From: a virus
DNA length: 21,739 nucleotides
Direction: 5' to 3' (one strand)
Virus record (IMG/VR): IMGVR_UViG_3300031951_001378
Location: 1-21,739 of that record
Within the stretch, counting starts at the first letter, position 1, and each line of letters opens with the position of its first letter. The position numbers were made by a program, and so were the translations under genes. The notes under the pieces are model-generated. The model searched no databases. It saw only the letters and a list, made by a program, of their open reading frames with translations, and had not been told where the DNA came from. Shown one piece after another: positions 1,747-19,247 of the stretch.

Positions 1747-2022
1747 TTACTCCTCTGAAGCCGGTAGAGTAAACGCGTCTGTTTCTGAATTATAGGTAGA
1801 TCCTACCGCAATTCCAAAATCAGCTAGAGGAAGCTTATCTGAGACGTCTTTTATTACGGGTTCACTTAGAAAGATAGCTGCTAAACGCTCGTCTGTGTGG
1901 AGAACGTCTACGACTTCTCCATCAATAATGAACGCAAGCTTTACTGGCGGTAGAGCTGACGCATCTCGAACTTGTTGTTCTGGCTCTTGTTTTGGAGTTT
2001 CTGGAGTAGTTTCTTCTGTCAT
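1747..2022 (-). CDS. Small acidic protein, possible structural accessory, 91 aa
   Basis: The first 25 residues are acidic and rich in Pro, Gln and Glu (MTEETTPETPKQEPEQQ) and probably disordered. The rest looks like a small beta-strand domain: VKLAFIIDGEVVDVLHTDER, later VGSTYNSETDAFTLP. The GxxY...FTLP ending is a pattern I associate with small phage virion proteins, but I cannot name the family. The start ATG 2022 overlaps the stop of the zinc-ribbon gene in an ATGA arrangement, with GGAAGAG upstream, which implies coupled translation. No catalytic motif is visible. Confidence 0.75.
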   Translation of the reverse strand: MTEETTPETPKQEPEQQVRDASALPPVKLAFIIDGEVVDVLHTDERLAAIFLSEPVIKDVSDKLPLADFGIAVGSTYNSETDAFTLPASEE

Positions 2023-2258
2023 AGCTCTTCCTTATACATAGATTTTCCAACTGGTTCCCACTTGTGTAATGGACAGCTTGCATTAGGGAGCTTAGTTTTA
2101 AGCTTCATGATGCATCCGCACTCTTTACATTGTGTAGTTGCTTTAATAAACTTATCGCAACCCTTGCAAATTTCTAGACGCTTTTCAGCAATATCAGTCT
2201 CTACTCGACCAATATTTTTATTGAACAGGTCCCAAGGACGGGCTGGTCTCTCACTCAT
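2019..2258 (-). CDS. Zinc-ribbon-like protein, 79 aa
   Basis: The core has two CxxC pairs, CKGC (residues 31-34) and CKEC (44-47), plus Cys49, Cys62 and His65 (CPLHKW). This fits a treble-clef or zinc-ribbon site with extra ligands. The N-terminus (RPARPWDLFNKN) and the helix before the first knuckle (KRLEICKGCDKFI) match a small phage family I recognise but cannot name with certainty. Function is not established; DNA or protein binding through zinc is the usual guess. ATG 2258 has AAGGAG upstream, 9 nt separate it from the stop of the Cys-repeat protein gene, and its own stop overlaps the next start by 4 nt. Confidence 0.85.
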   Translation of the reverse strand: MSERPARPWDLFNKNIGRVETDIAEKRLEICKGCDKFIKATTQCKECGCIMKLKTKLPNASCPLHKWEPVGKSMYKEEL

Positions 2259-2267
2259 TCATGCTCC

Positions 2268-4301
2268 TTATATAGTACCTAAAAAGTTATCTACAGTTGA
2301 TCCTTGACTTCCTGCAGAGGGGGCCTTAATTATACCCACAGAGGTTCCCTTTGTAGGACTTGTAGGGGTATGGTTTACAGTGGTTAATAGTGTGCCTCCT
2401 AGGTTTGCCGCAGAATATGCTCTAGAAGTGATCGTGTTTCCACTAGTGCTTACGTACACAGAACCGACGGTTGTATAGCCAGTTGTATTGCTTGATATGG
2501 TGGACGAAGCTGCAGACACTACGCTATTCGACACCGAGCTTACAACTACTAATGCAGTGGTATAGGTAATAGTAGTTACCCCACCGCTGTAAGTAACTCC
2601 GCTACAGCATCCAGCAGGGGTACAACCTGATCCTGTGCAAGTTGCCCCACCTTGATCACAAACCGTATCATTATAGCTTGCGTCTACTACGCTACCGCAA
2701 CACCCGGTAGGTGTGCATCCAGCGCCAAAACAATAAGCTATATTTGCATTACATACCGGTGTGCCAAAACCATACCAATATTGAGGCTGGTTCTCCAGCT
2801 TACCGCAGTCGCATCTACGCCGCGTTATAGAACCGCAACTGCAATTGTAATTTACGGCTTGAGTAGATGTAGAACAGCTACAGTTATAACTTCTATTTAC
2901 GTTAGAGGTTGTGCAACTACAGCTATAACTTCTGTTTACGTTCGAGGTAGTACAGCTGCAGTTATAGCTACGATTCACATTAGAGGTTGTACATCCGCAA
3001 CTATAGCTGCGATTAACAGTAGAGGTCGTACAGCTACAACTTACAGTACTGCTTCCCGTAGATCTAGCGCAGCATACGAACTGTCCGTCTCCGCAGGGAC
3101 CTCCAATACCGGCACAGTTAGAGCAGCCTACTTGACTCCAACCTCCACCACTGAGTCCAGCACAGCTGTTTCCGTCATTAATTACATATTGTGTTTCTCC
3201 AGGGACAGTTACTGTTCCAGAACACTGACCAGCATTAGCACAAGCTGTGCTGCTGTAATTTGTCTGGCTTTCTTGACAGGTTGCAGTTCCAGCGCACTGG
3301 CCAAATGATTGACAGCAACTATTGTTATAGTTAGTTTGAGTCTCTTGACAGGTAGCGCTACCTGAACACTGACCATTGCTTTGGCAGCAAGTGCTACTGT
3401 AGTTAGTCTGACTTTCTTGGCAAGTGGCCGTTCCAGAGCATTGCCCGTTATTTTGGCAGCAAGTGCTACTGTAGTTAGTTTGGCTTTCAGTACAAGTGGC
3501 GGTACCGGAACATTGCCCATTGTTTTGACAACAAGTGCTGCTATAACTAGTTACTTGTTCGTTGCAAGAAACAGATCCAGAACACTGAGAATTATTTTGG
3601 CAGCAAGTGCTGCTATATGTAGTTGTAGTCCCATCATTAACGCAGGAAGTAGAGGCGCAGCCTGCAGAACAACCGCTAGGGGTACAAGTACATCCGTTAC
3701 CGTTACAGTAACAGCTAGCAGTTCCAGTACACGCAGTTCCTCCTCCAAAAGGACCAGAGCATGCATTTGTAGACGTGAACTGTTGAACGGTATTACATGG
3801 AGTTGTAGTGCTAGTAAAGCAGCTTCTTCTTGCTATAGTTACAGTTCTTGTAGAAGTAAAGCATGATCCAGTTATTGGAGTTGTATTAGAGCTACTTGTA
3901 TAGGACGGATAACTAGCCCACCAAGATCCAGAGTCAGTTATCCAGAACGTTACTCCCGTACCGCCAGTAACATCTGCTTGAACTTTAACATCAGTATTTC
4001 CAAGATTTGCTGATGCTATTGGGTAAGTAGATGCAGCATCGTCCGCAATAGCAGTATTGCTACCACTAACTCTCCAATTACCTCTAAGGGCTGTCCAAAC
4101 CTGCCCAGAATCAGCAGTTCCTAAACCAGTTACTGTGGAAGCCCTGTTAAATGCGTCTTGAATTTTAGAAGCAAACCATTGTTTCCATTGTCCACCGACT
4201 TTAACGAATGCAGAAGTAGCGACCTTCCATTGGCCGCCTACTTTTACAGAAAGACCTGTTGCGGTCCTCCAGACACCGTTAACTCGAGATGAACCTGGCA
4301 T
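2268..4301 (-). CDS. Giant Cys-repeat adhesin-like virion protein, 677 aa
   Basis: Residues 7-43 carry three related W-containing units, two with VKVGGQWK, a style seen at the N-terminus of phage fibre proteins. Residues 47-130 look like the first half of a LamG/concanavalin-like beta sandwich (DAFNRAS, GTADSGQVWTALRGNWRVSG, then TFWITDSGSWWAS). Residues 575-677 look like the second half (GSVYVSTSGNTITSRAYS, KGTSVGII, ending STVDNF). Between them lie 64 cysteines (residues 147-566), including five 24-residue repeats plus one decayed copy (229-371), five 13-residue repeats plus a partial one (421-498), and three GCTPxGC-type knots (204-215, 529-535, 560-566). No signal peptide is visible. The start overlaps the upstream stop (TAATG). 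I infer a disulfide-stabilised or metal-binding adhesin at the tail tip. The split LamG-like reading is mine. Confidence 0.85.
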   Translation of the reverse strand: MPGSSRVNGVWRTATGLSVKVGGQWKVATSAFVKVGGQWKQWFASKIQDAFNRASTVTGLGTADSGQVWTALRGNWRVSGSNTAIADDAASTYPIASANLGNTDVKVQADVTGGTGVTFWITDSGSWWASYPSYTSSSNTTPITGSCFTSTRTVTIARRSCFTSTTTPCNTVQQFTSTNACSGPFGGGTACTGTASCYCNGNGCTCTPSGCSAGCASTSCVNDGTTTTYSSTCCQNNSQCSGSVSCNEQVTSYSSTCCQNNGQCSGTATCTESQTNYSSTCCQNNGQCSGTATCQESQTNYSSTCCQSNGQCSGSATCQETQTNYNNSCCQSFGQCAGTATCQESQTNYSSTACANAGQCSGTVTVPGETQYVINDGNSCAGLSGGGWSQVGCSNCAGIGGPCGDGQFVCCARSTGSSTVSCSCTTSTVNRSYSCGCTTSNVNRSYNCSCTTSNVNRSYSCSCTTSNVNRSYNCSCSTSTQAVNYNCSCGSITRRRCDCGKLENQPQYWYGFGTPVCNANIAYCFGAGCTPTGCCGSVVDASYNDTVCDQGGATCTGSGCTPAGCCSGVTYSGGVTTITYTTALVVVSSVSNSVVSAASSTISSNTTGYTTVGSVYVSTSGNTITSRAYSAANLGGTLLTTVNHTPTSPTKGTSVGIIKAPSAGSQGSTVDNFLGTI
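2847..3041 (-). repeat. 39-bp tandem repeat (13-aa CxC unit), five copies
   Basis: This codes residues 421-485 of the Cys-repeat protein. Each unit has the form (S/N)C(S/G)C(T/S)TS.....Y, with consensus SCSCTTSNVNRSY. Units start at residues 421, 434, 447, 460 and 473. The fifth is diverged in its second half, and a shortened sixth (NCSCGSITRRRCDC) runs to 2804. The C-x-C pairs recur every 13 residues. Confidence 0.9.
3189..3617 (-). repeat. 72-bp tandem repeat (24-aa four-Cys unit), five copies plus a decayed one
   Basis: This codes residues 229-371. Units begin at Tyr229, 253, 277, 301 and 325, with the decayed sixth at 349. Each full unit starts YSSTCCQNNGQC-like and has cysteines at unit positions 5, 6, 12 and 18, followed by ES/ETQTN. 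The sixth unit keeps only two of the four cysteines. Codons differ between units, so the copies are not recent exact duplications. Confidence 0.92.
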
Positions 4302-4531
4302 TATACGTACTGCACCCAGATGTCCCCATCACTACCGCCTGTAGGGGCATTGGTAGAGACAGTTATATTGCGAACAACGTTAGATGAAGTAGATGCGGTT
4401 GTAACTTGACCGTTCACAACATTTACTGCACCGATTGCTGATGGGGTAATACCTAAAGCAGCTGGGTTTAGTTGTGGACTTCCAAAAGCTTCCCATTGAG
4501 AAGTTGCATTATTCCAACGCTTAATAGCCAT
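4301..4531 (-). CDS. Small fibre-associated protein, 76 aa
   Basis: The N-terminus, MAIKRWNNATSQWEAFG, is a Trp-containing unit similar in style to those in fibre proteins. The C-terminus, NAPTGGSDGDIWVQYV, shares the DGDIW element with the upstream 189-residue protein (TDGDIWIDSD). The middle is Ser/Thr/Val-rich. It may be a small tail-fibre subunit or an adaptor between its neighbours; no enzymatic motif is present. Both ends are coupled to neighbours by TAATG overlaps (at 4531 and 4301), so stoichiometric production with them is likely. Confidence 0.75.
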   Translation of the reverse strand: MAIKRWNNATSQWEAFGSPQLNPAALGITPSAIGAVNVVNGQVTTASTSSNVVRNITVSTNAPTGGSDGDIWVQYV

Positions 4532-5100
4532 TAGTTAACTCCATACACTAGGGCTGTGCCACCAGAAAACGTTCCGGTAGACAGAGAGATAGTCATTTTT
4601 GTTAGGGCTGCGACCTGTGTGAACGCATTATTAGCGTTTAGCATAGTTACTACATCCGAGGTGTTGGTATAAACCCCACGTAGTTGACCCCAAGCAAAGC
4701 TAGTTGTATCTTGAGTATCCACGATTTCAACAGAAAAGTGATTAGTTGTTATCCCAGACTTTACGTTAGTAATGCTAAATAGAGCTGTTCCAGAAGCATA
4801 ATTAACCACGTTATCGTTTAGTGTGATGTTTACTGTGGCGTTTGCAGACGGACGAACTCCACGGAACACTACGTACACGTCTTTATATGCAGATGAAATA
4901 GAAATATCAGTAGTGCTACCAGAAAGAGTAACCTGAGAAACTAAGTTCTTTCCAGCATTGTTTTGAACATCTGAATCTATCCAGATATCGCCATCGGTAG
5001 GTGTTGTAGGTTGATTGGCGCCTATGAAGACGCGCTTGCCAGCGTATTCGTCAGTGAACGATATAGGTCCTAACGGCTGGCCGTTATTTTGGACCGCCAT
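4531..5100 (-). CDS. Probable tail fibre or virion surface protein, 189 aa
   Basis: After a short N-terminal part containing GPISFTDEYAGKRVFIG, a GDIW element occurs at about residues 37-40 (PTDGDIWIDSD). The rest is a Thr/Ser/Val/Asn-rich beta protein (YKDVYVVFRGVRPSANATV, later FAWGQLRGVY). It ends GTFSGGTALVYGVN, an ending typical of short phage fibre or receptor-binding tips. No Cys is present, in contrast to the protein two genes downstream. It is coupled on both sides by TAATG overlaps. The fibre-type role is inferred from composition, ending and neighbours. Confidence 0.75.
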   Translation of the reverse strand: MAVQNNGQPLGPISFTDEYAGKRVFIGANQPTTPTDGDIWIDSDVQNNAGKNLVSQVTLSGSTTDISISSAYKDVYVVFRGVRPSANATVNITLNDNVVNYASGTALFSITNVKSGITTNHFSVEIVDTQDTTSFAWGQLRGVYTNTSDVVTMLNANNAFTQVAALTKMTISLSTGTFSGGTALVYGVN

Positions 5101-5435
5101 TACGAGACCTCAGAACCGAAAGCTTGGAAGGTTAAGTTTGCAGTAGACGCAATTACTGTAACTGTGTCTGTTGCAGAGAGGGTTAGACCAAGGGTAAAGG
5201 TGGTCGTAGTGTTAGCTGGAATAGCTGTGTCAAACGCAAGGTACTGTGCGTTAGCTAACGCAGCGTTGTCTTCACGAACTGCTATGCGGTAGGTTGCGGC
5301 AGTAGTTCCGCGGTTACATATGACCAGGGTTGATACCACAGCCGAGGTGGCAGCAGGAACCGCATATAGCTGGGTTCCGCCAGATACGTTTGCGGCCGGG
5401 GCAACCTGACCTAAGATCTTATACGTTGTCGGCAA
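5100..5435 (-). CDS. Small beta-rich virion-type protein, 111 aa, TTG start
   Basis: The sequence has a regular beta pattern: YKILGQVAPAANVSGGTQLY, AVVSTLVICNRGTTAATYRI, then NTTTTFTLGLTLSATDTVTV, and ends AFGSEVS. I recognise this type as a common small phage protein, with the ICNRG..ATYRIAV and LAFDTAIPANTTTT segments as its hallmarks. A role as a small surface or decoration protein is likely but not proved. The start is TTG 5435: AAGGAG lies about 7 nt upstream and no nearby ATG fits. The gene overlaps the end of the glycosyltransferase gene by 17 nt. Confidence 0.8.
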   Translation of the reverse strand: MPTTYKILGQVAPAANVSGGTQLYAVPAATSAVVSTLVICNRGTTAATYRIAVREDNAALANAQYLAFDTAIPANTTTTFTLGLTLSATDTVTVIASTANLTFQAFGSEVS

Positions 5436-6495
5436 GAGATTGCTCCTTAGAGTAGAATTCTAGATTCGCCGTAAGGCGAGAGTCATTCGGGCTCAATTCT
5501 ACGGCTTTGGTTCCGTATTGAAATGCCTTATCGAACAAACCTAAGCGATACGAGGCTATGGCCGCGTAATCCCAGGGAGCCGATCCCCAGGCAAATTCTT
5601 CACATAAATACTCTAAAGGCTTTTCTGTTATCTCCAGGGCGCTCTCTGCAGCGTCTAGACAGTCAAACCAACGGTTATTTTCGTAGTAAAGCTTGGCTAG
5701 CTCTACGTAACCCTCTCTACGATCTGGGGCTTCTTCTACAGCTTTCTTTAACCAATCTTCTTTTTCTACAAAGTCTTCCATCATTTTAGCTATATACCTC
5801 ATCGATGCTGCTCGTTCCGGTTTCCATACCGCCTTTGGTAAGGAAAGATGTCGTTTAAACTCTTCTACGGACTCAGCAAACTTTCCGTAGAAGAAAAGCT
5901 CTCTGGCAAAGTAAAAAGCGTTGCGATCGTCATATGGGTCTTCTTTTACAGACTGAGCAAGTAGTGGGAAGTATTGAGATCTAGGCTTTGTGTTATCAGC
6001 GTGATGGTGGATTTGTAAGGTTGTCCACCCTTGAACTTCATCCATACGATCAGTAACCAGTACCTCATGAACCGGATGTTTCCACCTATACCCGTGTCGT
6101 CTGTGGATTTTGTCCCCGCCGTATTGTAGGCCTGGGCTTCCATCCTCGTTCCAATTCCACGTATATTGGTACCTAGGTCTGGTTATGTTTGTGTTGGAGA
6201 GGGCCTCTAATTCCTTACGCCATCCAGGAACTAGAACCTCGTCCATATCAAGGGCTATGCAAAAATCAATATCACTTGGTAGTAGGGCTAGAGAAGCATT
6301 GCGAGCATCATCAAACCTCCAAGGCTTGACGCTAATTGTGTGGCACACAATTCCTAGGCTCTCAGCTACTGCCTTGGTATTGTCTGTAGACCCGGTATCG
6401 GCTATGAGCAAATAATCTGCTTCTTTAGCGGATTCATACCAAGACTTTATAAACTGCTCTTCGTTTAGTGCTATCGTATAGACGGCTATTTTCAT
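5419..6495 (-). CDS. Family-2 glycosyltransferase with helical-repeat C-terminus, 358 aa
   Basis: The N-terminal GT-A domain (about 1-160) shows IALNEE (8-13), ADTGSTDNT (32-40) and the metal/nucleotide-binding region ALDMDE (81-86), followed by a His/Trp-rich acceptor region (RRHGYRWKHPVHE, 132-144; IHHHAD, 162-167). These are standard features of family-2 inverting glycosyltransferases using a nucleotide sugar. Residues about 175-345 form repeated helical pairs (FYFARELFFYGKFAESVEEF, YVELAKLYYENNRWFDCLDA, AIASYRLGLFDKAFQYGTKA), typical of TPR repeats for protein binding. ATG 6495 was chosen over TTG 6510 because of GGAG 9 nt upstream. It sits inside a fibre gene cluster, so I infer glycosylation of a phage virion protein; modification of host envelope sugars is the alternative. 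Confidence 0.9.
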   Translation of the reverse strand: MKIAVYTIALNEEQFIKSWYESAKEADYLLIADTGSTDNTKAVAESLGIVCHTISVKPWRFDDARNASLALLPSDIDFCIALDMDEVLVPGWRKELEALSNTNITRPRYQYTWNWNEDGSPGLQYGGDKIHRRHGYRWKHPVHEVLVTDRMDEVQGWTTLQIHHHADNTKPRSQYFPLLAQSVKEDPYDDRNAFYFARELFFYGKFAESVEEFKRHLSLPKAVWKPERAASMRYIAKMMEDFVEKEDWLKKAVEEAPDRREGYVELAKLYYENNRWFDCLDAAESALEITEKPLEYLCEEFAWGSAPWDYAAIASYRLGLFDKAFQYGTKAVELSPNDSRLTANLEFYSKEQSLADNV

Positions 6496-6510
6496 GCCCT
6501 CATGCTCCAA

Positions 6511-6621
6511 TTATTCTTCTGGGTAAACTAAGTCGTAACCTACGACCACTCCTTCATCGTTCTTTACTTCGAACTTTTCTGCCCCAGTTTCTGGGTCAAT
6601 TCCTAGGCTTGTGCGAATCAT
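6511..6621 (-). CDS. Small acidic protein, 36 aa
   Basis: ATG 6621 overlaps the TGA of the 608-codon fibre gene in an ATGA arrangement and the frame ends at TAA 6511, encoding [20 protein letters not shown] and then [16 protein letters not shown]. The same frame is open upstream to 6753, but that part lies inside the fibre gene and reads like noise, so the start is placed at the overlap. The composition is acidic and beta-like, with no cysteines and no recognisable domain. Coupled translation with the fibre gene suggests a related late function, such as a small chaperone or fibre accessory. That is inference. Confidence 0.65.
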
Positions 6622-8444
6622 GAGAACCTTCCCCAAACACTTACTGTGCTGGATGACATAGACGATATTGTTGTAGGTAGATCTGTTTGAGCAGCCACTG
6701 CTCCGGTAATTCTTGGAGATAGTGTAGACATAGTTGCAGGTACTGAGCTCCAAGCAAGCTGTAGATTTCCTGGAGTAGATGCCAAGACTATAATTCCAAG
6801 AGCGTATCTAGTTCCAGCAGTCAAGGTATAGCTTGCAGGAAAACCACCAGTGGTGTCTAGAGTTCTTGTATAAAGAGTGTTAGTAGTTCCAAATAGTGTT
6901 GGATCAGTAGCGGTTCTAGCCACTAATGTAGCAGTGTTTCCTGAGACTGTGTAAATACCAAAACGTATTAATGAAGCTCCTGTTGTAGCTATGTTTGCTG
7001 AAGCAACGCTAATAGAGGTAACTGCGGCTTCCCAAGATGGGGTAAACATAGTTAAATAAACGGTTCCAGAGGTAGGGGTTCCTGTGAAATTACCTATGCG
7101 TGGGTACACATCTACTATAGAAGTAGTTTGATTCATAGGGCCAGCATTAGCTACTAGAGGGTTGCTCCAAACTAATCCCGTAGTCTCATCAGACTTTGCC
7201 GATAAGAATAGGCCATTTGCGCCAACTGCTAGGTTGTCCACTGCCCCATTTGCTGTAGCGGCAAGTAAATCTCCCTTTGCCGTTACAAGGTGAGTTCCTA
7301 GAAGAGTAGTAGTTTCTGCAGGAACTGTAACTGTTACATCAGCTACAGGATCTGTAAATGAGAGGGTAGTCTCAAAATCATTTGCAGTGCCTTCGACAGT
7401 TATGGAAGAGTCTGATAGGTATAGGCCTGAAACTGTTGGGCTAGTTAAAGTAAGCCCGGATACTGTAGCGGCAGTTCCTCCAAGGGATACCGAGGTAGAG
7501 CCAATGGTTACGCTAGAGTTAGCAAGCTTTACGTTAGTTACGTTAGCATCAACAATCTTTGCGGTAGTTACTGTGTTATCTGTAGGGGTGCGGGTATCTG
7601 AAAGACGAGTATCAGATCCGTATACAACTTCTGTTGTAGACGCATTGCCCGTTGCTGGGATATTCTTTGTAGAGGCGGTTCCAAGACCAGTTACCTGAGT
7701 ATTAGCAATGCTTAGAAGCGATTGATCTAGACCAAGAATTGCGGAAGATGCAGTCCCAGTATTTGTTATAGGGCCGGTTACGGAGATTACTCCGGAAGGA
7801 CCGACAATCTGTCCTGCGCTATACCAACCTTGAATATCGCTCCACACATAAATATCACCATCAGAATCCACAATGTATGCGTCATTCTGTGTAGGTGTTG
7901 GGGTCGTAGGTAAGTTTGCTGGAGTTGCAACGCTACCAATTAATTTAATTGGAATACCTTGTGGACCAGTTGGACCGGTAGCACCCGTTGGGCCTGTTAC
8001 TGTTGAGTCAGCTCCGGTTGGTCCTGTTGGGCCTGTTGGACCTTCTGGTCCTGTAGGACCAGTTACTGTTGAGTCAGCGCCTGTAGGTCCGGTTGGTCCG
8101 GTTGGGCCAGTAGGGCCTGTGGGACCAGTAGGGCCTGTTGGTCCTGTAGGACCAGCGGGAACTGTAAAGTTATAAATAGCCGCTGTTGGAGTTCCAGAGT
8201 TAGTTACAGCGGCAGAAGATCCAGGGGCACCAGTTGTTACAGTACCAATAGTTGCGGTAGAGCTAGGGCCAGTTGGGCCGGTTACACCGGAAGAATAAGG
8301 AAGGGAGTTCCAAAGCTGAGTTCCATTACCGACTTTAAAGCGTCCGGTATCGTATTCATAACCTACTTCACCTTGAGCAAGCAAAGGGTTATTAGAGGAC
8401 CATGCAGCAGCGGTATCGCGGCGGAATTGAATTTTAACAGCCAC
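6618..8444 (-). CDS. Collagen-like tail fibre with Mtd-N-like head domain, 608 aa, GTG start
   Basis: Residues 3-50 ([20 protein letters not shown], then [17 protein letters not shown] and WNSLPY) match the small N-terminal domain found in phage fibres and in major tropism determinants (Mtd_N type). Gly-Pro-Thr triplets occupy about 54-60 and 98-163. A GD.Y.W module (165-216, IPIKLIG...[17 protein letters not shown]) follows. Residues 220-430 are fibre-shaft-like ([40 protein letters not shown]). The C-terminus (about 437-608) is a beta-rich tip with Trp, Tyr and Thr. GTG 8444 has AGGAGA upstream. It follows the 118-residue collagen-like gene by 10 nt. A receptor-binding fibre is the likely role. 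Confidence 0.88.
7956..8153 (-). repeat. Gly-Pro-Thr triplet repeat region of the 608-aa fibre
   Basis: This codes residues about 98-163: near-perfect G-P-T triplets, interrupted twice by a GADSTVTGP element. The DNA is a series of 9-bp units of the form (g/a)cc(a/t)gt(a/t)gg on the plus strand with codon variation. Such repeats form trimeric collagen-like shafts in phage fibres. Confidence 0.9.
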
Positions 8445-8454
8445 TTATGGTCTC

Positions 8455-8811
8455 CTAACCAAGAACGTTTCCGGCATCAATAGTTGGTGCGCCACCGTAT
8501 ATTGTATTAGCTGCGCCGCCATCTATGTTCTGAAAGATTGGGCCAGTTGGTCCAGTAGAACCTGTAGGACCTGTAACACCTTGTAAACCTTGTGGTCCAA
8601 TTGGACCAGTCGGACCAACAGAACCTGTTGGGCCTGTTACTCCTTGAGCTCCCTGCGGACCTGTGGGTCCCGTTGGTCCAATAGGACCTGTAGGGCCAGT
8701 TGCTCCCTGAGACATGCTGATACGCCAAACAGAGCCGTCCCAGTACCATGTCTGATCCCCGACTGTAAATGTTTGATTTAAAGTGGGGGAGTTAGGGAAA
8801 TCAATGGGCAC
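8455..8811 (-). CDS. Short collagen-like virion protein, 118 aa, GTG start
   Basis: The N-terminal domain (1-35: [20 protein letters not shown] followed by SVWRI) is a short phage fibre head motif with W-Y-W and W. Collagen-like triplets (36-91) have GPTGP, GPQG and GVTGPTGS units. A C-terminal tail, [13 protein letters not shown] (95-107), ends in IDAGNVLG. The GPTG shaft suggests a trimer. GTG 8811 follows GGGAG at 4-nt spacing and overlaps the upstream gene's stop region by less than a codon. With the 608- and 680-residue proteins this is the third collagen-like product in the window, and the shortest; it may act as a minor decoration fibre. Confidence 0.85.
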
Positions 8812-8982: not shown

Positions 8983-10290
8983 TTAGAATGGGTTATTAAA
9001 TACCCAAACACCTTGGTTAATAGCGTTACTGTATACATTGCCAGCCTGAAGAACAAGAAATTGGTTTGAAGATCCGGTAGTTGATACATGCCAAGTATTT
9101 AAATCTATCTGATGATTGATATCGGGGACAAATTCATTAACATCTATAACATCAAGAATAGTAACCTTATATGTAGTTGGGTTTATAGAAAATTTTACAA
9201 ACTCATATCCTGAAGTAGTCATGGTAATCCAAGTATCAACACCTATGGGCCAAACCATGTTGTTACTCCAGGATCTCCAACTGGGTTGTGGATCAGCAGT
9301 CTCATCTACGCGAGTTATGGTATTTCCGTTTCTAACAAAAATATTTCCATTTGAAGGGTAGTAAATTTGACGATTATTAGAAAGTTCTAAACCCCAACCA
9401 TCAAATAGGGCGTCTCCTCCATCGAAGCCTACAGCAGAAAAATTCCCAGTTACATCGTACCCCCCAGCTAAATTAAGTAAGTCATAGTGTGGGCATCCTG
9501 CGCTGTCACGAAAAACACGCATTCCAGCACCTGCTTCTGGGGAATTGTTTGCTGCCCCAAACTTATGCTTTACAGGCCAAGTAACGCTATACGCTTGTCT
9601 AGACCCAACGGAAGGCGCCTCACTTTGCACTAACGCAACTGAGGTACCATTAAATGAGTAGCTTATTCTTCTAAATAAACCCGTTGCAGTGTCGTATGTT
9701 TGAGCGTGATGATAAGCAATTCCAGTAGCATTATTGTAATTTCCCGGAGCATCTGTATTATTTTGAGGTTGTGCTTGAGGACCACCTGTAATAGTAGTTG
9801 CAGTAGCGGCTACAGCATTGTTGGCAATTCGAAATGCAGTAAATGAATTAGAACCGGCAGCGGGTGAGGTGTGCTGGTGCATGACGTACTTGCCTTGAGC
9901 ATTTACAGTTCCAGTATCAATATTAGTGCTTGTAGAGCTAGTTAAAGTTATGCCTGCAGCGCCAGTACCAACAGTAATTGCGCCCGTTGTTTGATTTACT
10001 CTAAATGGAAGAGCATATACTTCAGCATAAGCGTCGTTTATAGCGTAATGACGGGAGGTAGAAACAAAGTCTCCGCCGCCCAGGTTAAAAGTTCTTCGAT
10101 AAATAGTAGAACTTTGTGTGTAACCCACTGCAGCAGAAGTAGTAAATCTAGCAGAACCTGGATGTACTACTTTAAAATCAATTGGTTTCCTATAAGCACG
10201 AAAGTCTGCCCCAGGATGTTGACGCCATGTAGGTTTTTGTGGTTCAGATTGAATTTTAGAAAATTGACCTAAAAATGCACCATCAGTCAT
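8983..10290 (-). CDS. Fibre-like paralogue C of a three-gene tandem family, 435 aa
   Basis: This is the third member of a tandem family. Family blocks here include the glycine patch (FNLGGGDFVSTSRHYAI), the block LPFRVNQTTGAITVGTGA, ISYSFNGTSVALVQSE, LELSNNRQIYYPSNGNIFVR, GVDTWITMTTSGYEFVKFSI, NPTTYKVTILDVIDVN and a final QFLVLQAG. The regular beta pattern and G/N/T-rich loops suggest a beta-propeller-like or sandwich surface protein, but I cannot name the fold. The start is ATG 10290 (AGGAG upstream); TTG 10299 is in frame but less likely. One base separates it from the previous gene. A virion receptor-binding role is inferred from the cluster. Confidence 0.75.
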   Translation of the reverse strand: MTDGAFLGQFSKIQSEPQKPTWRQHPGADFRAYRKPIDFKVVHPGSARFTTSAAVGYTQSSTIYRRTFNLGGGDFVSTSRHYAINDAYAEVYALPFRVNQTTGAITVGTGAAGITLTSSTSTNIDTGTVNAQGKYVMHQHTSPAAGSNSFTAFRIANNAVAATATTITGGPQAQPQNNTDAPGNYNNATGIAYHHAQTYDTATGLFRRISYSFNGTSVALVQSEAPSVGSRQAYSVTWPVKHKFGAANNSPEAGAGMRVFRDSAGCPHYDLLNLAGGYDVTGNFSAVGFDGGDALFDGWGLELSNNRQIYYPSNGNIFVRNGNTITRVDETADPQPSWRSWSNNMVWPIGVDTWITMTTSGYEFVKFSINPTTYKVTILDVIDVNEFVPDINHQIDLNTWHVSTTGSSNQFLVLQAGNVYSNAINQGVWVFNNPF

Positions 10291-10291
10291 T

Positions 10292-11674
10292 TTATCCAAC
10301 TCCTGTCATTGGGTTTTTGTACACACGTATTGTTGGCCAGTAGTTACGGTCTTGAGTATGAACCATTACAATAAATTGATTATTACTTCCTGTAACACCG
10401 TTACCAAACCACACAGCTCCAGCATCCCAGTTTTGACCTCTTTGCATAGTGCGATTAAAGAAGCTTTCTATAATTGTAACTTTGTAAGTATTTGGGTCAA
10501 TTTTAAACTTTGTCCAGTGACGATCTCCTCCTGTAGAGCAGGAGATCCAAGTATCTACTCCCACTGGTGTGGCATAATAACCAAAGTCATTTCTAGATAC
10601 GTCTAGCCAGTCTGCAGTGGCTGAAACATCAGTCAAAACGTTTCCGTTTCTTAAAATAACTCGTTCATCTTCAGTCCATATAATTTGACGTCCATTTGAA
10701 AGGTCAAATCCATATGCCCTAAACGGACGATCAAATACTCCCCCACAAAATGACGTATCTACTGTAGAGGCTACTACTCCAGTGTTGTTAATAATATCAA
10801 AACGCCCATACCCATTATTATCTAATCTATAGCGGACTACTCCTAAAGTAGAAGAACCAAAATACCCAGTATTATATTGGCTATAGTTAGTTACTACATA
10901 GTTTGTCCCACCTTCTCCTTGAGAAAAAGTAGAAACAACTGCATTACCTTTAACGTTCCTTACTGTTGATAATGTAGTTCCATTATAAGAAGCAACTAAA
11001 TCCACATAACTTCTTGGAGTGGATTCTTCATAAGCATTCATAACAAAGTATGCGGTGTTGTCTCCGTTTGCCCTTGTAGTACCTAACATATAATTATCAT
11101 AAGAACGCACAGGTAAGGCAGAAGTACCTACGTTTATAAAGGACTGTCCAGTTACAGTGTTGCCTGCAACATTACACGCAGAAATAGTGCCACTGTTATA
11201 GGTTAAATTAGGTGGGCCACTAAAGTCGCCAAAACTAAACACATATGTCCCAGAAATTGCCCAAGCTTGTGTACTTGAAGTGGTCGTAGTGTTATTTAGG
11301 TTACCCCAAATTCTAGCACCGGTACCTTCAGTTATTACTCCTGTTGTTTGATTAACAGTAAAAGGTTTTACATAAACTTCTGTAGAGTACGTTTCTGGAG
11401 AGGTTCTTAAAATAGTAAATTGAGAGGAGGCGTATGAAAACTGGCCCCCACCATGGTTAAATAATCTATGGTCCTGAATAGTTCTAGGAACAATGCAATT
11501 ATTGGTGTCAAACCCTGTAGCTAACATGCGCTTTGAGTCTACTAATGCAAACGGGGAATCAGCATATCCGTTTGGTCCCCAAGCGCTATCTGGCCTAATA
11601 GTTGTACCAAAACCCCTATTGGCAGATTTCTTACGAGTTTTAACTAATTCATTTAGTGGAAGTATTCCGTCCAT
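10292..11674 (-). CDS. Fibre-like paralogue B of a three-gene tandem family, 460 aa
   Basis: This is the middle member of the family. It has the same order of blocks as its neighbours: a glycine patch (FNHGGGQFSYASSQF), VKPFTVNQTTGVITEGTGAR, VASYNGTTLSTVRNV, FDLSNGRQIIWTEDERVILR, PVGVDTWISCSTGGDRHWTK, FKIDPNTYKVTIIES and NNQFIVMVHT. It shares the C-terminal blocks more closely with paralogue C than with A. ATG 11674 directly abuts the upstream stop (0 nt), with AGGAAG upstream. The N-terminus (first 40 residues) is not shared and could be an anchoring segment. No enzymatic motif is visible; a surface adhesin is the best guess. Confidence 0.75.
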   Translation of the reverse strand: MDGILPLNELVKTRKKSANRGFGTTIRPDSAWGPNGYADSPFALVDSKRMLATGFDTNNCIVPRTIQDHRLFNHGGGQFSYASSQFTILRTSPETYSTEVYVKPFTVNQTTGVITEGTGARIWGNLNNTTTTSSTQAWAISGTYVFSFGDFSGPPNLTYNSGTISACNVAGNTVTGQSFINVGTSALPVRSYDNYMLGTTRANGDNTAYFVMNAYEESTPRSYVDLVASYNGTTLSTVRNVKGNAVVSTFSQGEGGTNYVVTNYSQYNTGYFGSSTLGVVRYRLDNNGYGRFDIINNTGVVASTVDTSFCGGVFDRPFRAYGFDLSNGRQIIWTEDERVILRNGNVLTDVSATADWLDVSRNDFGYYATPVGVDTWISCSTGGDRHWTKFKIDPNTYKVTIIESFFNRTMQRGQNWDAGAVWFGNGVTGSNNQFIVMVHTQDRNYWPTIRVYKNPMTGVG

Positions 11675-13075
11675 TTATCTTCCTTGCCTTCCGTGTCTTA
11701 TAACCCTAATTTTTGCTCGAGTACTCATGTTTAGCTCGCTTGGAGTAACAGTTAAGAAAAACTGCCGATCAGTACCAGTCATGAGAAGACCGCTATTATT
11801 GTAAGCAGCATTTATTCGATTAAGAGTTTTAGTGCCCCAATTAATATTAAAACTGTCTAAGTATTTAACCTCTAGCGTTGCTGGATTTATGTAAACTTTT
11901 ATCATTTCAACTGGGGTTACAACATTTGGGAGCCACCAAGTGTCTTGAGCTACAGGATTCATTTTAATAGCCAGATTTCTCCCACTACCAGGTATTACTA
12001 GGCCAGCAGTAGGGCCTTTTCTTATTTGTTCAGTAACATTTGTTACTGCGTATCCGCTTCCAGGAGTTCCAATTCTAAATACATGGGCATCTCTAGTAAA
12101 AATTAGGGTTGTTCCATCAGATAGTTGGAGTCCATTAATATCTGGATAATGAACCTGTGGATTTCCCCCCAGAAGAGTATTTCCATTTAGGGTTGAAACC
12201 GGGGCTAAAACATTGTCAAGAGCTTGAAATCTTGTTGCCCCAGCACTAGTCACAAACTGTCTAAAACCTACAGTAGCTACAGCGGTTCCCGCCTCAAAAT
12301 TAGCGCTCCATTGAGGAGCAATAGGAGTTGTACAGTGCCATTGACTTAAACTGGTGTTTGTAGCATCTAAAGCATTTTCTCTTACTTTAGTAAGAGTAGT
12401 ACCATTGTAAGAGTATACAAGATCATACGCACCAATTTGAGTTCCAGACGAGTTATGCGTTCTCGCTCCTGGAGCAAAATAAGATGTGTTACCGTTTCTA
12501 GTTACAGACTGCTCATGGTTATTATTATAAGAGGCGTGTGCTAGTGGCGCACCCACGTTATTTGCTGCTCCAGCAACTTGAGATTGTATACCAGATACGG
12601 TGTTATTAGATACTGTCCAAGCGGCTATGTAAGTTTGCCCTAAATAACCGAAAAACCATGCATGGCTTCCCGCGCCACCCCACATTGAGGTTGAGGTTTC
12701 TGCACCAGAGGCACTATTAAAGATAACTTGAGCGCCAGTACCAACAGTAATTGCACCCGTTGTTTGATTTACTTGAAAGGGTAATACATACAGCTCTGCG
12801 CCAGACGGACTTCCTTGACGATAGTAGTTAGTTGCGGCAAAAGAATACTGATTTCCGCCGTGATAGTAAGTTCTGTTATAAACAACTGAGTTTGACTGCA
12901 CTCTAGTTGCCGTGTTTAATGCCGTAGTAGTAACAAGTTTAAGGTCTACTGTTGGGTCCCCAAATTGAACTAAGTCGGGATAGGGACGGAGCCAATCTCT
13001 AGATTTAGTTTGTCGACCTTCTAAAGACTTTTCTAACTTAGCAATTTCGTTAAGTTTGTAGATATCGTTAGACAA
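11675..13075 (-). CDS. Fibre-like paralogue A of a three-gene tandem family, 466 aa, TTG start
   Basis: This is the first member of the family. It has the glycine patch (YYHGGNQYSFAATNYY), LPFQVNQTTGAITVGTGAQV, LVYSYNGTTLTKVRENAL, LQLSDGTTLIFTRDAHVFRI, INPATLEVKYLDSFNINWG and DRQFFLTVTP, and ends in a basic tail (RVIRHGRQGR). The C-terminal half is the most diverged of the three. Translation starts at TTG 13075: AAGGAG lies 6 nt upstream and the next Met in frame is far inside. The gap to the 864-residue fibre gene is 13 nt. The role is inferred to be a virion surface protein that recognises host or environmental glycans. Confidence 0.75.
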   Translation of the reverse strand: MSNDIYKLNEIAKLEKSLEGRQTKSRDWLRPYPDLVQFGDPTVDLKLVTTTALNTATRVQSNSVVYNRTYYHGGNQYSFAATNYYRQGSPSGAELYVLPFQVNQTTGAITVGTGAQVIFNSASGAETSTSMWGGAGSHAWFFGYLGQTYIAAWTVSNNTVSGIQSQVAGAANNVGAPLAHASYNNNHEQSVTRNGNTSYFAPGARTHNSSGTQIGAYDLVYSYNGTTLTKVRENALDATNTSLSQWHCTTPIAPQWSANFEAGTAVATVGFRQFVTSAGATRFQALDNVLAPVSTLNGNTLLGGNPQVHYPDINGLQLSDGTTLIFTRDAHVFRIGTPGSGYAVTNVTEQIRKGPTAGLVIPGSGRNLAIKMNPVAQDTWWLPNVVTPVEMIKVYINPATLEVKYLDSFNINWGTKTLNRINAAYNNSGLLMTGTDRQFFLTVTPSELNMSTRAKIRVIRHGRQGR

Positions 13076-17204: not shown

Positions 17205-19247
17205 TTACGCTCCTAACCACCAAGATAATGCAAGGCTTGATGGACCTGGTGGGCCTTGTTCACCAGTTGCACCCGTAGGCCCTGTAGGTCCTACAGTTCC
17301 TGTAGGTCCAGTTGGACCAAGAGGTGCTGCTCCTGTTTCAACCCAGTATCCATCATAGAAAATAAAAATACTGCCTGTATTTGGATCAAACCACGAATCT
17401 CCCTCAACTGCTGGAGATGGTGGAGTTGAAGATGTTGTAGTCCAAGCTCCTAGTGGACCTGTGGGTCCTGTAGGTCCTTGCGATCCCGTCGGTCCTTGTG
17501 GACCAACAATCATTCCTACATCATCCCACTGTGATCCATCCCAAAGCCAAAGATGTCCGCCATCTTCTTCGACAATATACGCATCGCCCGCAGTATTTCC
17601 AGTTGATGGGAGATCTGCAATTAATGAAACAGTTCCCTTTATTACAATTGATGTTCCTTGCGGACCAGTCGGACCAGTAGCTCCGGTAGGTCCTATAGGA
17701 CCAGTATCACCTACTGCTCCTGTCGGGCCTGTTGGGCCTGTTGGGCCTTGTGGTCCAGTGGAACCAGAGTAGTAAGGTGCCCAATAAGCAGTTCCTGGCG
17801 GATACCCTGGGTTTGGCCCAAGAATTCTTATAAATAATTCACCTGGGTTACCGTAAGGACTTCCAACAGGAGTACTTACAATATCTCCTACATTGTAATC
17901 AGCACCGTTGTCGTAATCGCCAACATAATTAGGAAATGTTCCCGCAGCGCCAGTAGGACCTGTTGGTCCCTCAATATTTCCAACGTTGTCCCATTCAGAA
18001 TTTATATTGTCCCAAACGTATAAATTACCGTTTACAAGATAAGCATCGCCAATGTTTCCCGTTGGTTGTGCGGCAACAAGTGCAGCATAACTTGAGTAAG
18101 AACCAAGAATATTTACGCCGGTTCCTTGAGGACCCGTAGGACCAGTAGGACCTTGAGGTCCAGTTAAACCATTTGGTCCCATCAATCCCATAGGGCCAGT
18201 TGGGCCAGTTGGACCGTGTGAACCTGTTGGTCCGGTCGGACCTTGAATTCCTTGAGGACCGGTCGCTCCGGTAGGTCCAGTTACATTTGATGCAGCGCCA
18301 GTAGGGCCAGTCGGACCAGTTGCACCAACTTCACCTTGAGGTCCTGTTGGACCAGTTACAGTAGAGGCTGCTCCTGTAGGTCCGGTTGGTCCAATCTCTC
18401 CGGCTATACCTTGAGGTCCTTGTGCACCAGTCGCGCCTGTTGCTCCTGTAGCACCGGTCGCGCCAGTAGGTCCTGTAGATCCTTGTGGACCAGTTGGACC
18501 AGTTACTGTGGATGCTGCACCCGTAGGACCTGTAGATCCGGTGGGACCAGTAGGTCCAGTTGGGCCTTGAATTTGACCTACGTTATCCCAAGTGTTGCCT
18601 TCCCAAACATAGAGATCGCCGTCAATTAAATATCCGTCGCCCTTTTGCTGACCTGTAATGGACTGTAGCTGAGCGTAATTAGATAGGGTGCCCTGTATTG
18701 TTAGGCCGGTTCCCATAGGACCTGTAGGGCCCGTAGGACCAGGAATTGTAGATGCCGCACCAGTAGGGCCAGTAGCACCAGTAGCTCCTTGAGGTCCTTG
18801 AGAACCAACGGCGCCAGTCGGACCGGTTACACCTTGAGGACCTGTTGCTCCAGTTGCGCCAGTCGCTCCAGTTGCACCAGTAGGACCGGTTTCTCCACGA
18901 GCACCAGTAGGACCAGTGTTTCCAGATAAACCGATTGGACCAGTCGCACCAGTTGGGCCGGTAGGACCAGTTACGTTAGATGCTGCACCTGTTGCACCAG
19001 TAGGGCCAGTGGGTCCTTGTGAACCTGTAGGGCCTTGTGCACCGGTGGGTCCCGTTGCTCCAGCAGCACCAGTAGCGCCGGCAGCACCAGTAGGGCCAGT
19101 AATTGATTGTCCAGCAGCACCGGTTGGACCGATTGGTCCTGTTGGACCGGCAGGACCAGTAGGACCACTGCCTCCGGTACCAGGTTCAATAATAACTACA
19201 GGAGTTGAATCCTCAGTTATCTCAATAATCTCTATTTCGTCAGACAC
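17205..19247 (-). CDS. Large collagen-like modular fibre, 680 aa, GTG start
   Basis: A short acidic N-terminus (1-22) leads into long G-x-y triplets, mainly GPTG, GATG and GPQG (28-180, 228-376, and shorter runs at 498-531, 582-598 and 643-669). A repeated small module separates them at about 182-228, 377-427 and 532-582: hydrophobic strands, then GD.Y.(V/I) and (L/D)(Y/W)(V/L)W....WD.VG.I. Residues 436-494 ([20 protein letters not shown] ... YWAPYYS) resemble a small chitin-binding-style module. Residues 601-640 ([20 protein letters not shown]) form another W-rich module. It ends in a short aromatic tip. GTG 19247 overlaps the upstream gene by 8 nt. A trimeric host-recognition fibre is likely. 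Confidence 0.9.
17241..19166 (-). repeat. Collagen-like G-x-y repeat blocks of the 680-aa fibre
   Basis: On the plus strand this reads as 9-bp units of the type (g/a)cc(a/t)gt(a/t)gg(a/t) with many synonymous changes. It is interrupted by three related domains at about 18701-18564, 18119-17967 and 17654-17502 and by two other small modules. A recurring GAAS(T/N)VTGPTG element marks block boundaries. Confidence 0.85.

Follow-up and report, generated by a model that had tools for sequence, protein, structure and literature searches.

A hypervariable cysteine-rich insertion with an even cysteine number in a split jelly-roll protein, a putative phage adhesin

The window analyzed here, i.e., positions 1 to 21,739 of IMG/VR record IMGVR_UViG_3300031951_001378 (21,739 nucleotides), encodes a 677-residue protein whose 64 cysteines (Cys) all fall within residues 147-566. 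This Cys-rich segment is a hypervariable insertion within a split jelly-roll domain and not a stand-alone array, a feature missed in the first-pass annotation of this DNA, and its even Cys number recurs throughout a family of otherwise very different inserts. The protein is probably a fiber-cluster adhesin of a BRock-like contractile phage, in which a constant jelly roll carries a variable, disulfide-paired knob that would contact the receptor.

A cysteine-rich insert in a split jelly-roll domain

The open reading frame (ORF) 2268-4301 exists solely on the minus strand, where it begins with an ATG at position 4301. Its translation confirmed the 64 Cys annotated between residues 147 and 566 (the first at 147, the last at 566), where Cys make up 15.2% of the residues, compared to 0.42% for the remaining 6,007 residues that the window encodes. 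The gene is divided as follows:

2268..4301, minus strand: whole Cys gene, 677 residues, 64 Cys
4173..4301, minus strand: residues 1-43, N-terminal segment with repeated KVGGQWK, which probably anchors the protein to the virion; matches phrog_25859
3870..4163, minus strand: residues 47-144, first half of the predicted CBM66/ConA-like jelly roll; a long strand (127-142) at its end runs toward the insert
2604..3863, minus strand: residues 147-566, hypervariable Cys-rich insert, 64 Cys
2271..2582, minus strand: residues 574-677, second jelly-roll half, starting with a long strand (574-590) coming from the insert

In the predicted structure the two conserved parts reach a predicted local distance difference test score (pLDDT) of about 80-96 and would fold together into one CBM66/ConA-like jelly roll. 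Residues 50-144 and 574-677 of the model align as a single domain with the CBM66 structure 4b1m (Z 17.7, 151 residues, root-mean-square deviation 2.3 Å, 9% identity), and the predicted jelly roll also matches the central fiber of mycobacteriophage Douge, 8zdp (Z 16.8, 170 residues aligned, 13% identity). These fold matches came from VIA-align; Foldseek alone, applied to the whole model, returned no significant PDB match, the low-confidence insert probably having diluted the score. At the sequence level, no Pfam family was found in the protein at E <= 0.1, so that no Pfam lectin or CBM family was recognized, a PDB sequence search yielded no real match, and BFVD returned at E <= 0.001 only uncultured Caudovirales proteins. 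Weak profile matches to alphavirus E1 in the PDB (E 0.05-0.1) were attributed to Cys composition and discarded.

Two profile hidden Markov models, one for each conserved part, were run over all ORFs of related loci fetched from IMG/VR (designated here by L and a number). Both jelly-roll halves are carried by 98 distinct proteins, in all of which the insertion point is identical, while the segment between the halves measures 10-528 residues and differs between lineages, its repeats being unrelated. Since L281, L285 and L286 possess just a 10-residue hairpin at this site, the Cys segment is an insertion at a hairpin tip of the jelly roll. The two strands flanking the window insert, both long and confidently predicted, are consistent with a ribbon stalk; the L165 model contains strands at residues 83-99, 104-114, 228-238 and 243-260, with additional strands outside the sandwich. 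About 95 relatives were identified in IMG/VR, normally one in each phage; of 30 contigs, 28 contain a single copy, and tblastn searches with several members and parts against 50,697 GenBank phages identified no full relative: a match in phiST1 proved to be an unrelated repeat protein, and those in Burkholderia and Vibrio phages have only the KVGGxWK segment in common with the family. The insertion site also accepts another kind of insert, as L206 (an ORF of 583 residues) bears at the same site a 98-residue insert that lacks Cys and consists mostly of Tyr, Ser and Thr (YTYAYTYAYTYSG...).

The variability of the insert is apparent among close relatives. The phages of L002 and L004 have a major capsid protein (MCP) 99% identical to that of the window. 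Between L002 and the window, the genes adjoining the Cys gene are collinear and mostly 81-96% identical (the exception being 1747-2022, at 67%), and the jelly-roll halves of the Cys protein are 87% and 70% identical; the inserts exhibit no detectable similarity. The L281 phage, with an MCP 96% identical to that of the window, encodes an orthologue without insert, its jelly roll and neighbors being more diverged. A diversity-generating retroelement was rejected as the source of this variation, as reverse transcriptase (PF00078) was found in none of the 30 contigs, several of them about 100 kb, although contigs may be incomplete. The inserts of L118 and L255 both contain CYQT and NPYNC mini-repeats, in opposite order, as if arms had been exchanged.

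Location among fiber genes and proposed function

The window MCP is 71-72% identical to that of BRock-group Streptomyces phages, whose tails are sheathed. Gene 1162-1743 matches the BRock/LuckySocke gene situated directly before the tail fiber gene (28-29% identity), a correspondence which places the Cys gene in the fiber slot, between the capsid/neck and sheath genes. Judged by MCP homology and neck/tail gene order, the virus is a Borockvirus-like contractile phage. Its host is probably an actinobacterium; WhiB exceeded the cut-off in 21 of 30 contigs and, among 14 control genomes, only in Corynebacterium. The immediate neighbors of the Cys gene are:

4301..4531, minus strand: upstream gene, 76 residues, with a TAATG overlap at the start of the Cys gene; 96% identical in the L002 phage
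2019..2258, minus strand: downstream gene, 79 residues, small and Cys-rich, DUF6171/phrog_13558; syntenic in relatives

The interpretation as a receptor-binding adhesin rests on the combination of fiber-cluster position, hypervariability and a fold found at a glycan-binding fiber tip, the C-terminal tip domain of Douge being known to bind mycobacterial glycans (PMC13033339). According to this model, the KVGGQWK N-terminus, which also occurs in a gene adjoining the tail fiber gene in Vibrio T5-like phages, would tie the protein to the virion, and one hairpin tip of the sandwich would be extended into a beta-ribbon stalk bearing a knob of shuffled Cys-rich mini-modules. The 64 Cys would pair into 32 disulfides, as the family-wide parity described below suggests, and these would form once the particle has left the reducing cytoplasm, after lysis. 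The knob would contact the receptor and be quickly swapped or rebuilt on a jelly roll that, like the other parts of the virion, would stay similar.

Several considerations weigh against this proposal. The disulfides, the binding and the virion location are inferred, the stalk is a prediction, a glycan-binding fold does not prove glycan binding, and the variability of the knob could have causes other than receptor choice. Furthermore, most of the window insert was modeled with pLDDT below 50, with no homologues to align, and is thus largely unpredicted; the structure prediction that had been suggested as a check was not decisive, although residues 361-420 reached about 72-88. A broader proposition is possible, though we advance it only tentatively: that uncultured phages, many of them of actinobacteria, evolved an antibody-like mode of recognition, with a constant jelly roll, an ever-rebuilt disulfide knob oxidized only after lysis, total Cys pairing as the sole structural rule, and diversity generated by module shuffling.

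The first-pass annotation had considered an adhesin or armor architecture, and had described disulfide-rich phage virion proteins as very rare. The latter statement is partly outdated, since phages Milano (PMC10811340) and 7-7-1 (PMC12796354) have disulfides in virions made in the cytoplasm, where they form virion-stiffening networks. If the Cys protein were armor of this kind, its cross-links would stabilize the capsid or tail; however, those of Milano and 7-7-1 mostly lock subunits to one another in conserved proteins of the sheath, baseplate and capsid with about 2% Cys, compared to a variable insert with 15% Cys here. Cross-links to a conserved partner would be expected to keep some Cys positions, whereas no part of the region is less conserved than the Cys segment, which is replaced by unrelated inserts in phages with a 99% identical capsid protein and is lacking altogether from the L281 orthologue. 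As the gene is moreover located among fiber genes, armor is considered unlikely, and the adhesin half of the earlier alternative is the one retained.

A comparably low probability is assigned to a secreted or lysis-released protein that is no part of the particle, e.g., a decoy, exclusion factor or effector. The protein is Cys-rich, extracellular-looking and hypervariable, and its presence in the virion is itself deduced, all of which would suit such a role. Nevertheless, no obvious N-terminal signal peptide was recognized by eye, the KVGGQWK segment recurs beside phage tail fiber genes, and the Cys gene overlaps its upstream neighbor inside a conserved fiber cluster.

Even cysteine numbers and the modules of the insert

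Parity was assessed for the 92 unique inserts of at least 30 residues, and the Cys number is even in all 92 (range 0 to 64, with 91 inserts having 4-64 Cys), compared to 46.5 expected under independent placement. An observation originally made for one protein, that its Cys count is even, therefore extends to the entire set. Other residues within the same inserts served as controls and are even in about 37-64% of inserts, or up to 74% for residues so rare that zero is common. They were used in place of other ORFs of the same loci, of which 27 of 37 with at least four Cys are even, a weak control given how few and low these counts are and that some of the ORFs may be spurious. The 92 inserts represent 57 clusters at 50% identity (looser thresholds merge them by shared low-complexity composition), and the core tree requires at least 48 changes of insert Cys number, none of them odd. 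Close relatives also gain or lose Cys by twos (L269/L271, L135/L162 and L143/L149). Nor can parity be put down simply to repeat units with an even Cys number, as L122, L123, L143, L149 and L154 contain four to six three-Cys units and yet have even totals.

The odd totals of some proteins (L059, L069, L121, L163, L108, the L281 group, L199 and L294) are due in each case to one Cys located elsewhere than in the insert. In L059, L069, L121 and L294, the inserts of which are even, this lone core Cys occupies the same place in the jelly roll (GGCGP/QGCGP). Two extra copies read later (G014 and G027) have 10 and 14 insert Cys, respectively. The orthologues of L281, L285 and L286 (about 2830-4930), which lack the insert, possess C-terminal Cys mini-domains between long proline runs, and these contain 2, 18, 12, 6 and 6 Cys, i.e., an even number each.

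It is accepted that an excess of even Cys counts points to disulfide pairing (PMC3177088). Parity across all inserts thus constitutes strong evidence that the insert Cys are all paired as disulfides rather than arranged in metal sites, two options between which the first-pass annotation had not chosen. An even number would be forced by pairs within a chain or between different Cys of two chains, while symmetric cross-links, in which a Cys is joined to its own counterpart in a second copy, need not give even numbers. Thioredoxin genes, present in 12 of 30 contigs, are common in phages and say little in this regard.

Binding of metal (Zn, Cu or Fe-S) by the Cys, in a metallothionein-like or multi-zinc segment that scavenges metals or is stabilized by them, is accordingly given very little weight. 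Such binding works in the reducing cytoplasm, dense CC, CxC and CxxC-like spacings are present, and the neighboring gene 2019-2258 encodes a small Cys-rich protein. However, thiolate clusters require no even number, and Cys spacing is wholly different among relatives. Cys4 sites would favor multiples of four, whereas 48 of the 92 even inserts have a multiple of four and 44 do not; this lack of preference, together with a His content averaging 0.4 per insert, speaks against zinc sites.

Within the insert of the window protein, the following parts were distinguished:

3642..3863, minus strand: residues 147-220, irregular part, 12 Cys
3258..3617, minus strand: residues 229-348, five 24-residue units of CC-x5-C-x5-C, 20 Cys
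3186..3257, minus strand: residues 349-372, decayed sixth 24-residue unit, 2 Cys
3069..3185, minus strand: residues 373-411, NDGxxC...FVCC module, 6 Cys, pLDDT about 72-88
2805..3038, minus strand: residues 422-499, 13-residue C-x-C units (five, then partial), 14 Cys
2694..2753, minus strand: residues 517-536, GCTPxGCC module, 5 Cys
2604..2660, minus strand: residues 548-566, GCTPxGCC module, 5 Cys

Both tandem arrays were located where first annotated, the 24-residue units beginning at residues 229, 253, 277, 301 and 325, with the decayed sixth at 349, and the 13-residue units at 422, 435, 448, 461 and 474, with partial ones at 487 and 497. CTPxGC motifs are likewise present at residues ~206, 530 and 561, although their designation as three 'knots' is unsupported. 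Comparison of 24-residue copies 2-4 revealed 10-13 synonymous versus only 1-4 non-synonymous codon differences, indicating that the repeats are not due to chance and that the protein, Cys included, is under selection. In the decayed sixth unit Cys 2 and 3 remain, Cys 1 and 4 having disappeared together, from which we predict, on the strength of this one event, Cys1-Cys4 and Cys2-Cys3 pairs within the unit.

Scans of IMG/VR found the 13-residue and 24-residue tandem repeats of the window in no other contig, so that the co-occurrence of the two repeat types elsewhere, which had been raised as a question, was not observed. The NDGxxC...FVCC module, in contrast, reappears in L005/L153 (69%) and L006/L156 (52%), and the GCTPxGCC module of residues 548-566 in L136 (84%), L125, L129, L138 and L134; the recurrence of these modules in other contexts indicates that the inserts are mosaics. 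A low-complexity repeat expansion devoid of defined structure, its even Cys number merely inherited by descent, would accord with the tandem repeats and the low pLDDT across most of the insert, but is the least credible explanation in view of the strong synonymous bias between copies, at least 48 exclusively even changes of Cys number, even totals from odd-Cys repeat units, and conserved modules with fair structure prediction.

Comparison with known systems and neighboring genes

Among the closest known systems is the C-terminal tip domain of the Douge central fiber, gp20 (PDB 8ZDP, PMC13033339), which has the same jelly-roll fold in a fiber protein of an actinobacterial phage; Douge is, however, a siphophage and not contractile, no report of a Cys-rich insert in this domain was encountered, and the sequence identity is low, as given above. 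CBM66 of Bacillus subtilis (PDB 4B1M/4B1L) is the best structural match for the jelly roll, yet it is a bacterial enzyme module without an insert, and the likeness is one of fold. Alike in the mechanism proposed here are the bovine antibodies with an ultralong third heavy-chain complementarity-determining region (CDR-H3), in which a beta-sandwich carries a ribbon stalk and a variable disulfide knob with a variable Cys number biased to even, in loops of up to about 70 residues (PMC5994613, PMC7366855). There is no homology between the two systems: the antibodies have an Ig fold and diversify somatically, and the inserts described here reach 528 residues. The Streptomyces phages BRock and LuckySocke share with the window a similar neck/tail neighborhood in addition to the MCP, but have a simple tail fiber or tailspike gene at this place and no homologue of the Cys protein by tblastn.

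While the scaffold fold and disulfide-bearing virions were thus already known, no description of a hypervariable disulfide-knob insertion in a phage fiber domain, with complete Cys parity throughout dozens of inserts unrelated to one another, was found in the open-licence literature. If the proposal is correct, disulfide-rich knobs would represent a hypervariable phage recognition element distinct from reverse-transcriptase-driven diversification or fiber swapping, and would raise the testable question of how 32 correct disulfides arise extracellularly in a protein synthesized in the reducing cytoplasm. The family would also offer a natural collection of widely differing disulfide-rich folds, all displayed on a single scaffold.

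Further features were observed in and around the fiber cluster. At 8983-13075 (minus strand), three successive genes of 438, 460 and 466 residues resemble paralogues and have no match in the flanking regions retrieved for close relatives. A frameshift or deletion inside the second jelly-roll half has apparently joined the Cys-insert gene of L128 to a small Cys-rich gene resembling the window's 2019-2258. Three genes of the same cluster in the window (6618-8444, 8455-8811 and 17205-19247, minus strand) contain long GPTGPTG collagen-like repeats. Gene 5419-6510 (minus strand), also inside the cluster, encodes a glycosyltransferase family 2 protein with TPR repeats, which is kept in relatives at 71-85% and could glycosylate a fiber protein.
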